Positions 40,208 to 45,318 of a DNA stretch of 45,565 nt are shown piece after piece. Origin of the DNA: Nitrospira sp. Lineage in GTDB: Bacteria > Nitrospirota > Nitrospiria > Nitrospirales > Nitrospiraceae. How positions within the stretch are numbered: the first letter of the stretch is position 1; every line of letters starts with the position of its first letter. The stretch lies in the NCBI GenBank assembly GCA_005116955.1, contig SWDI01000005.1, forward strand, positions 219,263-264,827, written 5' to 3'. The position numbers and the translations under genes are program-made. A model generated the notes under the pieces. That model was not told the DNA's origin and searched no databases. It worked only from the letters and a program-made list of their open reading frames with translations.

Positions 40208-40831
40208 TCAGGAAGGCTTGGGAATGTAGTTCTCAAAGAATTTAGCCAGAGAGGAAAAGTCTCCCTGATCAGCGTCCCGTATGGCGGCAATATATTGCGA
40301 TCGGATTTGATGGCCTTCAGACATAAGCTGGGTTTGAGGCCATTGCGGCAAAGGATGTCCGCGAGAATAAAAGAAGATGTCGGTGATCAGTCGTGCATGC
40401 CGTCCATTCCCATTTCTGAAGGGATGAATCTTTGTCAGTCTGTTCTGCAGCCGTGCCGCCACCTCCAAGACCGGCATCGGTGACGCGGGCGAATCCCAAT
40501 AGAGAAAGTCATCACATAACAAGCGAATCTGTTCTGGCACGATCCGCCAGTCCATTCCGATATTGAGATTGTCAGTCCGGTATTTCCCCGCCCACTTCCA
40601 GATGGATCCAAACATATCGTGATGGACTACACAGATAAACTCATTGGTGAGCCATCGCGCGCCACGCTTCTTCCTGCGGGCCTCAAACACGTATTTGTCG
40701 TAGGCCAGACTAATGGCATGGGCTTCAGCTGCGTTCCGTTCGGCTCTCGTCGTGAGCCGAGTCAGAATCAGCCCTGAGGTGTCATCGCCTGCAGTCTCAC
40801 CATCGGGCTGTGTTTCGTCCGCGATGCTCAT
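40208..40831 (-). CDS. Fic-domain protein (mobile mystery protein B type)
   Basis: A 207-residue protein with the Fic catalytic motif HPFRNGNGRHAR, which fits HPFxxGNGRxxR and implies adenylylation (AMPylation) activity. The N-terminus contains a helical LTRAE...E segment that may include an inhibitory motif. Length, Fic motif and pairing with the next gene match the 'mobile mystery protein B' family. Its ATG overlaps the stop of the HTH gene, so the two are co-translated. It may act as toxin with the HTH as partner. Confidence 0.88.
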   Translation of the reverse strand: MSIADETQPDGETAGDDTSGLILTRLTTRAERNAAEAHAISLAYDKYVFEARRKKRGARWLTNEFICVVHHDMFGSIWKWAGKYRTDNLNIGMDWRIVPEQIRLLCDDFLYWDSPASPMPVLEVAARLQNRLTKIHPFRNGNGRHARLITDIFFYSRGHPLPQWPQTQLMSEGHQIRSQYIAAIRDADQGDFSSLAKFFENYIPKPS

Positions 40832-41292
40832 CGAGCTGATAGTCGTTTACGAGGGCTGCGGAGAATATCGTCGGTCCGTTTCTCAAGAAGCTGCTTGAAT
40901 GTGTCCTCATCAGGTGCTTGGTCCTCAAGTGCCATGGTTCCCATCGTTTGCTTCAGTCGTTTGAGGGCCACAGCACGGGCACGATCTCTCGTAAGTTCTT
41001 CCAGAGGTTTGTGGAGCAGCGGTTCAAGGTTAAGCTCACAGCCTAAGCCTTCATAGATTCGGCGGAGTGTCCCGACTTGGGGGTCCACTTTCCCAGACTC
41101 AATCGCAGCCAGATTGGGCTGCGTAATATAGGCACGTTGAGCCAGCTCAACCTGCGTCATTCGTAGCCGATTCCGAAGCAGACGGATCCAGTCCCCGGCC
41201 GTAAGTTTGCTCGTATCTCTTGACGTCCGTACTGTCAGTCTTGATAAAGCTATATCATCGAGCAGCGTTGTGAATGTTTTTCTCATGGCCAT
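40828..41292 (-). CDS. HTH regulator (mobile mystery protein A type)
   Basis: A 154-residue protein with a Xre-like helix-turn-helix (WIRLLRNRLRMTQVELAQRA, ITQPNLAAIESGKVDPQ) and the C-terminal segment LKRLKQTMGTMALEDQAPDE typical of 'mobile mystery protein A'. This family sits upstream of Fic-like partner genes, often on mobile elements. It probably autoregulates the pair. The start abuts the repeat at 41302 by about 10 bases. Confidence 0.85.
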   Translation of the reverse strand: MAMRKTFTTLLDDIALSRLTVRTSRDTSKLTAGDWIRLLRNRLRMTQVELAQRAYITQPNLAAIESGKVDPQVGTLRRIYEGLGCELNLEPLLHKPLEELTRDRARAVALKRLKQTMGTMALEDQAPDEDTFKQLLEKRTDDILRSPRKRLSAR

Positions 41293-41301
41293 TAATTATA
41301 C

Positions 41302-41486
41302 ATGGAAAGCCGCCAAGTCCGCAAGTCCGAAGCCTACCGAAAGCTGTTCCTCGAACGCATCGCCTTCGACCTGCTGCTGCGCTAAGCACGCACCTCGTAA
41401 AGCGTCGTGCCCGACGGTTTCAAGTTTCATGTTTCGAGTTTTAGGTTGTTTGGAAACTTGAAACCTCAAACCTGAAACTGCTTCTG
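41302..41486. repeat. Direct repeat copy 1, with gene 3' end and imperfect hairpin
   Basis: About 185 bases nearly identical to 42305-42489. The first part encodes the last 25 or so residues of an unknown protein (RQVRKSEAYRKLFLERIAFD then LLLR and TAA at 41383-41385). The second part is an imperfect palindrome with arms GGTTTCAAGTTTC and GAAACTTGAAACC. The repeat lies between the HTH/Fic pair and the ParE/RelE pair. Confidence 0.8.
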
Positions 41487-41636
41487 AACCGTTGAACATG
41501 AAACCTGGAATTCAGGATCGAAGAACCGAACGGCGCACGACGCGCCTCACGGCCTGCTGCGAGCAGCCGCCGGGGCAAATGGCTGCGGTGGATCTGGCTG
41601 TCTTTGTCGAGAAGAGAAAGGAAATTTCAGTGCCGC

Positions 41637-41933
41637 TCAGATTCGTTTCTGCCAGCGAATGGGGTCTCGTTTGCTGTGGATACAGGCGGCGATGAGGATC
41701 TCGTCATCGTGAACGATATAAATCACACTGTAGGGAAACCGCCGCAACACTGCGCGTCTCGCACTGCCGAACACGATTGGGTAGAGCGCAGGACGGCGCT
41801 GCACCTGAGCGATGACCGCATCGAGCGAGCGCAGAAGTTCCGCCCCCAATCCTTGGCCACGCATTTCGTACCAGTCCACCGCCTCAGCCAATTCGGCCTC
41901 CACCTCGGGGCGAAAGACGATACGCCGCGTCAT
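41637..41933 (-). CDS. ParE/RelE-family toxin
   Basis: A 98-residue toxin starting at MTRRIVFRPE (the frame reaches 41948). Pattern is that of plasmid-stabilisation RelE/ParE proteins: VEAELAEAVDWYEMRGQGLG, LRSLDAVIAQVQRRPALYP, VLRRFPYSVIYIVHDDEIL, AACIHSKRDP. Such toxins cleave mRNA or poison gyrase. It overlaps the antitoxin gene by 4 bases, confirming a two-gene module. It lies between direct repeats. Confidence 0.92.
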   Translation of the reverse strand: MTRRIVFRPEVEAELAEAVDWYEMRGQGLGAELLRSLDAVIAQVQRRPALYPIVFGSARRAVLRRFPYSVIYIVHDDEILIAACIHSKRDPIRWQKRI

Positions 41934-42157
41934 CCCAGACGCGACCATAGGCGTGCGCGCACATCCTCCCAGCTGAGGGCTGAGCTTGGGTCACGCGCAT
42001 GCTCGGCGACGCGCCGTTCAATTTCCTGGCGCTGATCGTCGGACAGCGCCGGCAGAAGGTCTGGCCGCGCGGCGACACTGTCCCACAGATCTTCGGCGAG
42101 CTGGATACGCTCTGCCGGGCTGAGCTTCAGGAGTTCCGCTATCACAGCATTCTTCAT
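41930..42157 (-). CDS. Addiction-module antitoxin
   Basis: A 75-residue protein starting at MKNAVIAEL (the frame reaches 42196). It has the pattern of the TIGR02574 'putative addiction module' antitoxins: LLKLSPAERIQLAEDLWDSV, ALSDDQRQEIERRVAEH and a final WEDVRARL. It neutralises the downstream ParE/RelE toxin and probably represses the operon. Its stop overlaps the toxin start. Confidence 0.9.
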   Translation of the reverse strand: MKNAVIAELLKLSPAERIQLAEDLWDSVAARPDLLPALSDDQRQEIERRVAEHARDPSSALSWEDVRARLWSRLG

Positions 42158-42229
42158 GTTTGTGTGCCCTTCATAGAAGAGAAACTGTCCTTTCAATTAT
42201 AGCTTGTTACAGGTACGGTTTCTATCTGA

Positions 42230-42388
42230 TCAGCCGGGCTTCTCGACCATGAACATCAGATCTCCGACACGGACGGCTTCCTCATCATCGACGACTCCAA
42301 TCCGATGGACAGCCGCCAAGTCCGCAAGTCCGAAGCCTACCGAAAGCTGTTCCTCGAACGCATCGCCTTCGACCTGCTGCTGCGCTAA
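42230..42388 (+). pseudogene. 3' fragment of an unrecognised gene
   Basis: A 52-codon frame without start (GLLDHEHQISDTDGFLIIDD, SNPMDSRQVRKSEAYRKLFL, ending FDLLLR-TAA) lies just before and into repeat copy 2. Copy 1 at 41302 contains only its last portion. It looks like the truncated end of one gene, duplicated around the toxin-antitoxin pair. Family unknown. Confidence 0.55.
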
Positions 42389-42489
42389 GCACGCACCTCG
42401 TGCAGCGTCGTGGCCGACGGTTTCAAGTTTCATGTTTCGAGTTTTAGGTTGTTTGGAGACTTGAAACCTCAAACCCGAAACTGCCTCTG
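42305..42489. repeat. Direct repeat copy 2
   Basis: Matches 41302-41486 at a constant offset of 1003 bases with only scattered mismatches. It includes the gene 3' end and the GTTTCAAGTTTC/GACTTGAAACC palindrome. Similarity continues beyond it toward the third copy (44690-44935), including CTTCACG-TTTCAC and GTGCGCGAAG motifs. Confidence 0.8.
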
Positions 42490-42750: not shown

Positions 42751-43686
42751 ATGCGGGCTAGAGAGAGAGGCTCGATGTTGGCTGTCGCCGGCGGTTCATC
42801 GCTCTCCGTCCGTCCGCTCGCCTGGAACCTGTTCTTCGCGCGTCAACCGGAGCCGAGTCTGGAATTCACGGAAGTGTGGCCGGACGAGGCCACGATTGGA
42901 TCGCCTTCGCCCGCAAAGCCCCCCAAGCAATCACACGGTCGCCCGCTTCTGTGGGTCTTGGTCTTCGTGCTGATCGGCGGTGGCGCCTATGTCGCAACGG
43001 AGCCGGAGATGGTCACGGAGTCTCTCAGGCCGCTCCTCGACGAAATCCCGGCACCGCAACCAGCGGTGGCTCAGAATCCAACGCCTGCAACACCTGCGCC
43101 GTCAAAGCAGGTTGAACAAGACTGGGCGTTCCTCACCCCAGCTGACACACCAACTCCCTCGTCCCCGACTGCCACACCGATACCGGCGGCCTCCACTCCT
43201 GTAACGGCTCCTCCAACAGCAACACCGGCAAACCAGCCTGAACAGAATTGGTCCTTCCTCGCCCCAGATCAACCCATCACCCCATCCTCCCCGGCTGCGG
43301 CACCGATACCGACGGCCTCCGCTTCAGCAACAACATCCCCAACCTCCGCACCGGCGAAGCAGGTTAAACAGGACGAGGCACTCCTCGCCAAAATTGAAGC
43401 CTTCAGACGGGAGCGGAATTCAGTGCCGGGGACGAGGGGAGCTCCAGTCCCGACGTTTCACGAGGGACAGAGAGTCAGCGTGCGGCCAGATCTCAACGCG
43501 CCCAGTTGGGCCGTCCTGCTTCGCCAAGACGCCGAGGGCACACAGCCGGGACCGGCCCTTCCACTAGGAACCGTACTCACCATCCTTGATGGGGAATTGC
43601 AAGGACGCAGCTGGGTCTACTTCGTTCGCAGTGACGTCGGCAGCGAGGGGTGGCTGGCTGAAGGGCAGCTCAGATTGACACGCTGA
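42751..43686 (+). CDS. Membrane-anchored SH3-like protein with Pro/Thr-rich repeats
   Basis: A 311-residue protein; start at ATG 42751 or 42775. A single membrane segment (PLLWVLVFVLIGGGAYVATE, about 66-86) is followed by a Pro/Ala/Thr-rich region with two and a half copies of a roughly 42-residue unit (each with EQ-D/N-W-A/S-FL, then P-SSP-T-A-PIP). A C-terminal bacterial SH3-like domain follows (VSVRPDLNAPSWAVLLRQDA, LPLGTVLTILDGELQGRSWV, GSEGWLAEGQLRLTR). SH3b domains often bind peptidoglycan, so a cell-wall role is inferred. Confidence 0.75.
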   Translation: MRARERGSMLAVAGGSSLSVRPLAWNLFFARQPEPSLEFTEVWPDEATIGSPSPAKPPKQSHGRPLLWVLVFVLIGGGAYVATEPEMVTESLRPLLDEIPAPQPAVAQNPTPATPAPSKQVEQDWAFLTPADTPTPSSPTATPIPAASTPVTAPPTATPANQPEQNWSFLAPDQPITPSSPAAAPIPTASASATTSPTSAPAKQVKQDEALLAKIEAFRRERNSVPGTRGAPVPTFHEGQRVSVRPDLNAPSWAVLLRQDAEGTQPGPALPLGTVLTILDGELQGRSWVYFVRSDVGSEGWLAEGQLRLTR

Positions 43687-43748: not shown

Positions 43749-44423
43749 TCAGTTCTCTCGCCGATGGAGGGTTGCCACCGCCTGCACGCCTTCTTCCCTA
43801 CCGCCGTTCATGAAATGGACGACGATCTCCTGATCGGTTACTGTTCCAACGAATCGCGAGGCAATCCCATAGGTGATATTTTCTACGATTCCGTGAGAGT
43901 GGCCCTGTTCAACTGTTCCCGAAATCTTCAGCCGTTCTCCCGAGCTCATTTCCCCGGAGCCAGTCACCGTATCGCCCGCCTGCTGAAGGCTCACGCGAAA
44001 CAATCGACCCAGAGAAACCATGCTGCCATCGCTTACGCTGGACTCTTGCGACAACACACCGTGCCAATCCCCTGATAGGCCTGCTCCCCGCCGAGGGGCG
44101 AGCGCAATGGTCCTTGCCTGCTCAGGAGCGGCCGGTACGGCCATCCGTTCCGTCATGGCATCGCTCCACGACAGAACTGATTGATCCGTCTCGGCTGCGC
44201 GCACAGAACGCTGCTCAAAAAGTTGCGGCGGATTCAGCTCCGTCACGGGTGCGTTCCCGTACGGGATGCCGGTGCAGGCACAGAGGAGAGATGATGTGAA
44301 TAAAGCAAGAAAAGGACCTTGCTTTACGATTGTCCTGCGAGCTGTCTTCCCCAGCTTGGCAGAAATGAGTTGTGTACGCGCGGTGGTGATATGGCTGAGC
44401 ATCTGTTCGCAGAATGTCTTCAT
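43749..44423 (-). CDS. Secreted lipoprotein-like protein
   Basis: A 224-residue protein starting at MKTFCEQMLS behind GGAGGTT (the frame extends to 44519). A basic N-terminus of about 40 residues precedes a hydrophobic segment (GPFLALFTSSLLCAC) with a lipobox-like LCAC. The mature part is beta-rich at the end (LSGDWHGVLSQESS, LGRLFRVSLQQAGDTVTGSG, LKISGTVEQGHSHG, RFVGTVTDQEIVVHFMNGG), typical of a small beta-barrel domain that follows SGDWxG. No named family is certain. Confidence 0.7.
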   Translation of the reverse strand: MKTFCEQMLSHITTARTQLISAKLGKTARRTIVKQGPFLALFTSSLLCACTGIPYGNAPVTELNPPQLFEQRSVRAAETDQSVLSWSDAMTERMAVPAAPEQARTIALAPRRGAGLSGDWHGVLSQESSVSDGSMVSLGRLFRVSLQQAGDTVTGSGEMSSGERLKISGTVEQGHSHGIVENITYGIASRFVGTVTDQEIVVHFMNGGREEGVQAVATLHRREN

Positions 44424-44689
44424 GATGGTGAACCTCCAGTCATGTCTGGGTTTCGGCAGGCTGCAGCTCTCGGAGAAGCTATGCCGCATATTTTTCTGCA
44501 TGATGCCCCACGACCTCACGTATGACTACTGAATCTGCAATTCCGACACTCACACGGCATTGACCGGAGACGTATTCCGGGGAGGGTCAGCACCGATCGA
44601 TCATCAGGCGATGAGGAATTACACCTTGGAGAGCTGTGTCTAGACGAGCTCACATGACTCATGACTGTTTGTGGCGAAATCGCATTCCT

Positions 44690-44935
44690 CGTGAGGCGGA
44701 TCACGTGACGCGTCTTGGCCACGGTTTCACGTCTCATGTGTCGAGCTTCAGGTTGATCGAACAGTTGGAACTTGGAACCTTAGACGTAAAACTATCTCTG
44801 GAATGTCGTGCGCGAAGGGTGACGCGTATCTCGCTCCGGATTCGGACACTTCACGCTTCACGAATGACGCTTCACACTGTAGATCGACGATTGAAGCAGA
44901 AGCGCTCATGAACAATGCGGGTTAGGGGGAGAGTC
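44690..44935. repeat. Diverged third copy of the repeat unit
   Basis: GTCTTGGCCACGGTTTCAC, TCATGTGTCGAG, TTGGAACTTGGAACC, CTCTGGAATGTCGTGCGCGAAG and ATGCGGGTTAG match, with drift, successive pieces of repeat copy 2 and its downstream flank. The gene-3'-end part is not evident here. Confidence 0.55.
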
Positions 44936-45075: not shown

Positions 45076-45318
45076 ATGAAGATCGAAATTGGTTCGTATG
45101 AAGCGAAAACAAAGCTCCCTGAATTGCTGCGGCAGGTCAAAGCCGGAAAAAGCTTTACCATCACCAATCGCGGGGAAGCCATTGCGGATCTGGTGCCGAG
45201 CGCAGGGGTGAGGGCGAAGGACACAGTTGCGGCAGCAAAAAAATTGAAGGCATTCATGCTGGCCGCTCCGGTGCGTGGGGTCAACATTAAAGCGCTCATC
45301 GAGGAGGGGCGTGCGTGA
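45076..45318 (+). CDS. Phd/YefM-family antitoxin
   Basis: An 80-residue protein: KIEIGSYEAKTKLPELLRQV, KAGKSFTITNRGEAIADLVP matches the Phd/YefM DNA-binding domain (strand, helix with A-K-x-x-L, then I-T-x-R-G-x-x-x-A-x-L-x-P). The C-terminal tail (LIEEGRA) binds the toxin. It precedes a PIN-domain toxin whose GTG overlaps its stop. Confidence 0.93.
   Translation: MKIEIGSYEAKTKLPELLRQVKAGKSFTITNRGEAIADLVPSAGVRAKDTVAAAKKLKAFMLAAPVRGVNIKALIEEGRA

Follow-up and report, generated by a model that had tools for sequence, protein, structure and literature searches.

How toxin-antitoxin (TA) modules come to lie at the ends of chromosomal genes with no carrier element around them is the question raised by a locus in a Nitrospira-type draft genome (G000; 3.65 Mb in 8 contigs, 99.8% complete). 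We analysed a 45,565-nucleotide stretch of this genome, hereafter the window (G000:C5:219263-264827), in which a ParE/RelE-family TA pair is bracketed by direct repeats. The original prediction, made from the letters of the window, had described repeats of 185 bp at an offset of 1003 bp, and we recovered them at 41302-41486 and 42305-42489 with 96% identity and a spacing of 1003 bp. Each repeat consisted of the 3' end of a gene encoding a fused MFS/spermidine-synthase-like protein (the MFS gene) together with about 100 bp past its stop codon. An intact MFS gene, encoding 522 amino acids with a membrane part and a Spermine_synth domain (PF01564), was located elsewhere on the contig, at a distance of about 80 kb (G000:C5:341063-342631), and the homology of copy 2 to this gene started already at 42237, beyond the 185-bp repeat. 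The predicted sharing of the last codons of one gene by both copies was therefore traced to the MFS gene, while the palindrome said to accompany those codons was imperfect and folded only slightly better than shuffled sequences (z -1.5). Domain matches revealed nothing but a ParE toxin and an antitoxin between the copies, in agreement with the predicted lack of a recombinase there, and the pair is probably a type II module, as a ParE-superfamily toxin lies beside a small antitoxin gene and the two open reading frames overlap by 19 bp. The window repeats are a duplicated host-gene end around a 750-bp TA-only insert (Table 1). At this and other sites, TA pairs, sometimes stacked, are flanked on one side by an intact host gene and on the other by an additional copy of its end, and our analysis suggests that such "addiction" genes come into chromosomes as cassettes free of any recombinase, with the host gene remaining functional.

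Relatives of G000 provided both empty and filled versions of the site; the named relatives in which the MFS gene was found are Nitrospira metagenome-assembled genomes. In G019 (isolate RSF1), the MFS gene on contig C18 (L058), its stop codon, the post-stop repeat and both genes found downstream of copy 2 follow one another with no TA module in between. Copy 2 was continuous with these downstream genes and 94% identical to G019 over 2.3 kb. The site was filled in G048 (UW-LDO-01), where an intact MFS gene was followed by VapBC, a truncated form of the window antitoxin (84% amino acid identity) adjoining a second MFS 3' end, and the same downstream genes. The junction between the antitoxin upstream region and the MFS end was recognisably alike in G000 and G048, so the insertion is either older than their split or was exchanged. 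A different TA pair, Phd/VapC, was found between an intact MFS gene and decayed MFS pieces in G056, JZ-4 and G006, with the G056 remnants covering about 1 kb of the MFS gene, and Phd/VapC adjoined the MFS gene in G008 as well as in these three. Phd/VapC was 90% identical between G000 and G056 compared to 73% for the MFS gene, indicating that the TA pair has moved between species at the MFS locus. Several relatives lacked TA genes at the MFS gene. As its 3' end carried different TA modules or none among relatives, we consider it a TA hotspot. The proposal that the pair had integrated at a gene 3' end and duplicated that end was supported, with an empty site in G019, and the search for empty sites that accompanied the proposal succeeded at crcB and hypD as well. 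Separately, an MFS/spermidine-synthase gene in G019 was represented by its first 182 codons, directly followed by another, RelE-type, TA pair (G019:C27:368112; L076 1501-2580).

The arrangement recurred at other genes. Searches for ParE and PIN toxins were the sole source of the TA loci sampled in G000, and 7 of the 26 loci obtained were bracketed, with 628-900 bp separating the direct repeats. The brackets involved the 3' ends of the MFS gene (185-bp repeat), crcB (290 bp), a cytochrome-c peroxidase gene (86 bp), a glnE-like gene (244 bp) and wecB (170 bp), and the 5' ends of hypD (182 bp) and a lipoprotein gene (352 bp). Of the two copies in the bracket cases read, one was part of an intact gene or of an array that such a gene anchors; the other was a fragment. 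Repeats of at least 120 bp were present at 6/26 TA loci in G000 and 3/59 TA loci in other genomes compared to 0/708 control windows, our main control being random Nitrospira windows, and 0/30 Usp loci, an imperfect control since Usp domains occur in tandem. A Fisher test of the G000 TA loci against the control windows gave 1e-9, or 2.6e-6 after overlapping windows were collapsed. Chance origin of the window bracket was excluded because none of the 708 Nitrospira control windows had direct repeats of at least 120 bp around an interval of about 350 bp. One of the 3/59 loci belongs to another species, G018, where ribE and a copy of its 3' end (187 bp, 86% identity) enclose a ParE module (L104 1045-2872). 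Roughly one in four of the TA loci sampled in G000 bear a scar of entry and, together with empty sites, filled sites and arrays, they make the question of entry directly testable. We also noted in G075 a VapC/AbrB-type pair between 331-bp repeats (90% identity), beside a replication-initiator-like gene (L266 418-2546).

Two of these sites held tandem arrays. At wecB (L233 9549-10652, minus strand), the intact gene was followed by four further copies of its 3' end, each about 180 bp, that keep apart four TA or TA-like modules (G000:C2:443357-447760, equal to L233 5358-9761): DUF2442, DUF433/DUF5615, PIN_3 with DUF2283, and ParE. The boundaries of the 3'-end copies were closely similar through the four repeats. 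At the glnE-like gene, the intact gene was accompanied by a HEPN/MNT module, named by eye from sequence, and a ParE module, each followed by a copy of about 230 bp of the glnE 3' end (G000:C3:233229-237260, equal to L234 3230-7261). At crcB, the left copy in G000 kept the native upstream region and the right copy the native downstream region; the relatives G011, G004, G084, G053 and G054 had a single crcB, after which the flank that follows the fragment in G000 came within about 0.25-0.5 kb. Such a layout is what would be expected from a target-duplicating insertion or from a cassette carrying its own gene end. The hypD insertion was common to four relatives and missing in ten or more. Within its repeats, a block of about 50 bp (L221 1246-1426 and 2295-2475, compared with L332) occurred in two types, and their assignment to fragment and full gene in G000 was reversed in G019; a related species without TA genes at hypD, G055, had the second type, that of the intact gene in G000. 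The original prediction had envisaged cassette-like capture at one repeat that defined the site. The cassette-like arrangement was found again at other genes, twice in tandem arrays, so that cassette-like capture describes it fairly, but a single universal repeat as the capture site was rejected: every bracket was the end of its own neighbour gene.

We hypothesize that the window pair is a 750-bp TA-only insertion at a host-gene 3' end, accompanied by duplication of that end (about 250 bp in the G000 lineage) such that one copy of the gene remains whole, and that it entered by means of a TA unit carrying homology and was kept by addiction (probability roughly 0.55). A TA module once fused to part of a host gene's end would bring that part along as its own homology. 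Linear or excised circular TA DNA could then recombine, in a RecA-type rather than site-specific reaction, with the matching gene end of a different chromosome, which would restore the host gene and add one extra copy of its end; repeated rounds of entry would build arrays. Collapse of the direct repeats would delete the TA genes, and post-segregational killing should penalise such loss. We propose that TA modules in particular stay bracketed because collapse is penalised in this way. A wider form of the hypothesis, in which TA modules generally behave as recombinase-free cassettes with a portable host-gene end, enter by homologous recombination, leave the gene intact, accumulate in arrays of four or more and are kept by addiction, is put forward tentatively, at somewhat less than even odds. 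On this view, the occurrence of TA modules at gene ends with no carrier around them would find an explanation, and addiction may help to stabilise direct repeats.

A target duplication and a homology-borne cassette differ in whether the two copies at a site are sisters. The hypD copies in G000 did not look like sisters, and the block swap between G000 and G019 is as expected if single cassette crossovers had occurred at different points in the repeat. Likewise, the similar wecB boundaries appear to fit better with reuse of one homologous segment than with independent breaks. Several observations weigh against entry of a homology-carrying unit. The MFS copies within G000, and those within G048, were mutual near neighbours, as in-place duplication or later gene conversion would give, and the hypD block swap could be the product of two gene conversions. 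The G019 contig with the empty MFS site is short (5.3 kb) and ends within the MFS gene, and the bracket pattern, strong in G000, was weaker elsewhere in the sample (the 3/59 loci above). The circular TA form is one that we infer, neither a circular form nor a junction read having been seen. Some of these points would be accommodated by a long target duplication made in place, through template switching or because staggered breaks were joined with a TA fragment between them, with neither a donor gene end nor later cassette behaviour. The sister-like MFS copies, the variable repeat length (86 to about 350 bp), the extent of the G056 remnants and the use of gene 5' as well as 3' ends all point this way, and some restriction-modification (RM) systems insert with long, variable target duplications on the order of 100 bp, according to passages of a review (PMC3874152). 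Independent random breaks would not be expected to yield boundaries as alike as those of the four wecB repeats, however, nor would duplication in place yield the non-sister hypD copies of G000, and we regard this route as a serious but rather unlikely one.

The repeats might instead be the attL and attR sites of integrase-dependent elements resembling cis-mobilizable elements (CIMEs), with a recombinase acting in trans to move the TA cassettes. Integrases classically target gene 3' ends, and elements of this kind typically restore the end of the gene (ICESt1/CIMEs, e14). We consider this reading very improbable because the brackets read contained no recombinase (by eye none was recognised in the adjoining 20 kb either, and no genome-wide integrase search was run), the repeat sequences of the different anchor genes differed with no common core noticed, and 5' ends, in two brackets, were used along with 3' ends. 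It is also conceivable that duplications and insertions of all kinds arise and that those containing TA genes persist since their collapse is lethal, with no special mode of TA entry. This survivorship would account for the enrichment without new mobility, direct repeats of such size are generally expected to be unstable, and the idea partly overlaps our favoured explanation. On its own it leaves unexplained the serial arrays with similar boundaries and the foreign-looking hypD block, and we consider it improbable as the whole account.

Nobusato et al. 2000 and Furuta et al. 2010 are said to have described RM genes inserted with a long target duplication, and such insertions are the closest precedent. 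In RM insertion as at the present sites, an addiction-type gene pair without a carrier element is associated with a long, variable target duplication on the order of 100 bp and with linked rearrangements, whereas in Nitrospira the genes are TA instead of RM, one gene copy is intact and tandem arrays occur at one gene end, as far as can be judged from the relevant passages of the RM literature. Those of the review (PMC3874152) attribute target duplications that are long and variable to RM systems and mention none for TA systems. Literature searches on TA genes with target duplications gave nothing closer than the RM precedent, with most subscription papers outside our reach. CIMEs and tandem accretion at gene 3' ends, such as ICESt1 at fda, are generally known to involve recombinase-less segments that lie between gene 3'-end copies and can be stacked; the Nitrospira brackets differ in having no integrase inside, many unrelated anchor genes including 5' ends, and units of only 0.6-0.9 kb. 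Chromosomal integron arrays rich in TA modules also contain small TA units with repeats between them. In Nitrospira the repeats are the ends of local anchor genes, different at each site, with no attC-type site common to the arrays, and no IntI or other integrase was seen by eye among the open reading frames of the wecB and glnE regions fetched, a genome-wide integrase search not being part of the analysis. In E. coli, chromosomal TA genes occupy intergenic hotspots (folA-apaH, relA-mazG) at which different modules are found at one locus across strains; passages of a TA review on these hotspots describe the integration mechanism as unelucidated and do not mention gene-end duplications (PMC7167474). 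A plasmid vehicle for the window pair was considered and rejected: the plasmid-borne relatives of the toxin were all <60% identical.

Table 1 Features of the bracketed TA locus and its surroundings, in window coordinates
Feature	Position	Strand	Remarks
Inserted unit, 750 bp, TA pair only	41487..42236	.	missing from G019 contig C18, where the gene 3' end adjoins the downstream genes
ParE/RelE-family toxin, 103 amino acids	41637..41948	-	PF05016, E=1.2e-6
Antitoxin, "putative addiction module component" (Unstab_antitox)	41930..42196	-	PF09720, E=8.8e-18; ATG likely at 42157
Copy 1, coding part	41302..41385	+	last 27 codons and stop of MFS gene; 100% to intact gene over 84 bp
Copy 1, post-stop dispersed repeat	41386..41486	+	imperfect heptamer-based palindrome; 94% to 42389-42489
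Copy 2, coding part	42237..42388	+	last 50 codons and stop of MFS gene; 95.4% to intact gene over 152 bp
Copy 2, post-stop dispersed repeat	42389..42489	+	
Right-flank native gene, 311 amino acids, without Pfam match	42751..43686	+	directly after MFS gene in G019; after duplicated 3' end in G048
Lipoprotein-like right-flank gene	43749..44519	-	order conserved in G019 and G048
Fic toxin and HTH antitoxin, neighbour of copy 1 outside the unit	40208..41292	-	PF02661 (Fic), PF01381 (HTH_3)
"Third copy" before Phd/VapC, consisting of the post-stop dispersed repeat alone	44704..44822	+	75-79% to post-stop part of copy 2
Phd-type antitoxin; VapC/PIN toxin from 45315 past window end	45076..45318	+	PF02604, E=3.9e-5, below Pfam's own cut-off

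The short coding part of copy 1 can be understood from the gene order in G019, taken as ancestral, where a Fic/HTH block is followed by a block homologous to C5:310784-341609 that ends in the MFS gene and then by a block homologous to the region past the window; in G000 the middle block sits further downstream. Relative to G019, a block of about 32 kb (G000:C5:310784-342632) has moved about 50 kb downstream with its orientation kept. The Fic/HTH homology to G019 and G006 stops at 41300/41301, and copy 1 starts at 41302. Judged by this synteny, copy 1 is the 84-bp scar of an MFS gene that once stood to the left of the TA pair and lost most of its length in the G000 lineage when the block relocated. 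The Fic/HTH pair abuts the truncated copy, as the original prediction had observed, because the block ending in the intact MFS gene moved away. The predicted linkage of this pair to the repeat failed, in that its homologues in G019:C27 and G006:C61 lay in other contexts without the repeat, and the synteny in both genomes led us to reject Fic/HTH as part of the inserted unit.

The post-stop part of the window repeats, about 100 bp, is a dispersed repeat, of which about eight copies can be recognised across G000. Further copies were found at C5:263966 and at C2:686270, 689188 and 697632, and the repeat also occurred among PEP-CTERM-type and type II secretion genes. The diverged third copy that had been described before Phd/VapC proved to match in this post-stop part, with no gene end within about 44704-44822. 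As for the suggested tie between Phd/VapC and the repeat, the pair occurs at the MFS hotspot in several species, but within the window it is connected through the dispersed element alone. In G006 the counterpart of this element is placed immediately between the MFS gene and Phd/VapC. The repeat at each site is the end of the gene that anchors it and the post-stop element is dispersed, which is contrary to the idea of one repeat defining a capture site. The post-stop palindrome was rejected as a mobile site: several of its approximately eight copies lie away from TA genes, it is missing after both G048 copies and the hairpin is weak. An RNA element was likewise rejected after an Rfam search of the region returned no match. 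At G000:C2:481 kb (L027 2877-3612), a copy of the post-stop repeat was seen just upstream of an unrelated Phd/VapC pair. The 311-amino-acid right-flank gene contains imperfect 126-bp tandem repeats at 43084-43335 of the window, corresponding to a proline/threonine-rich linker.
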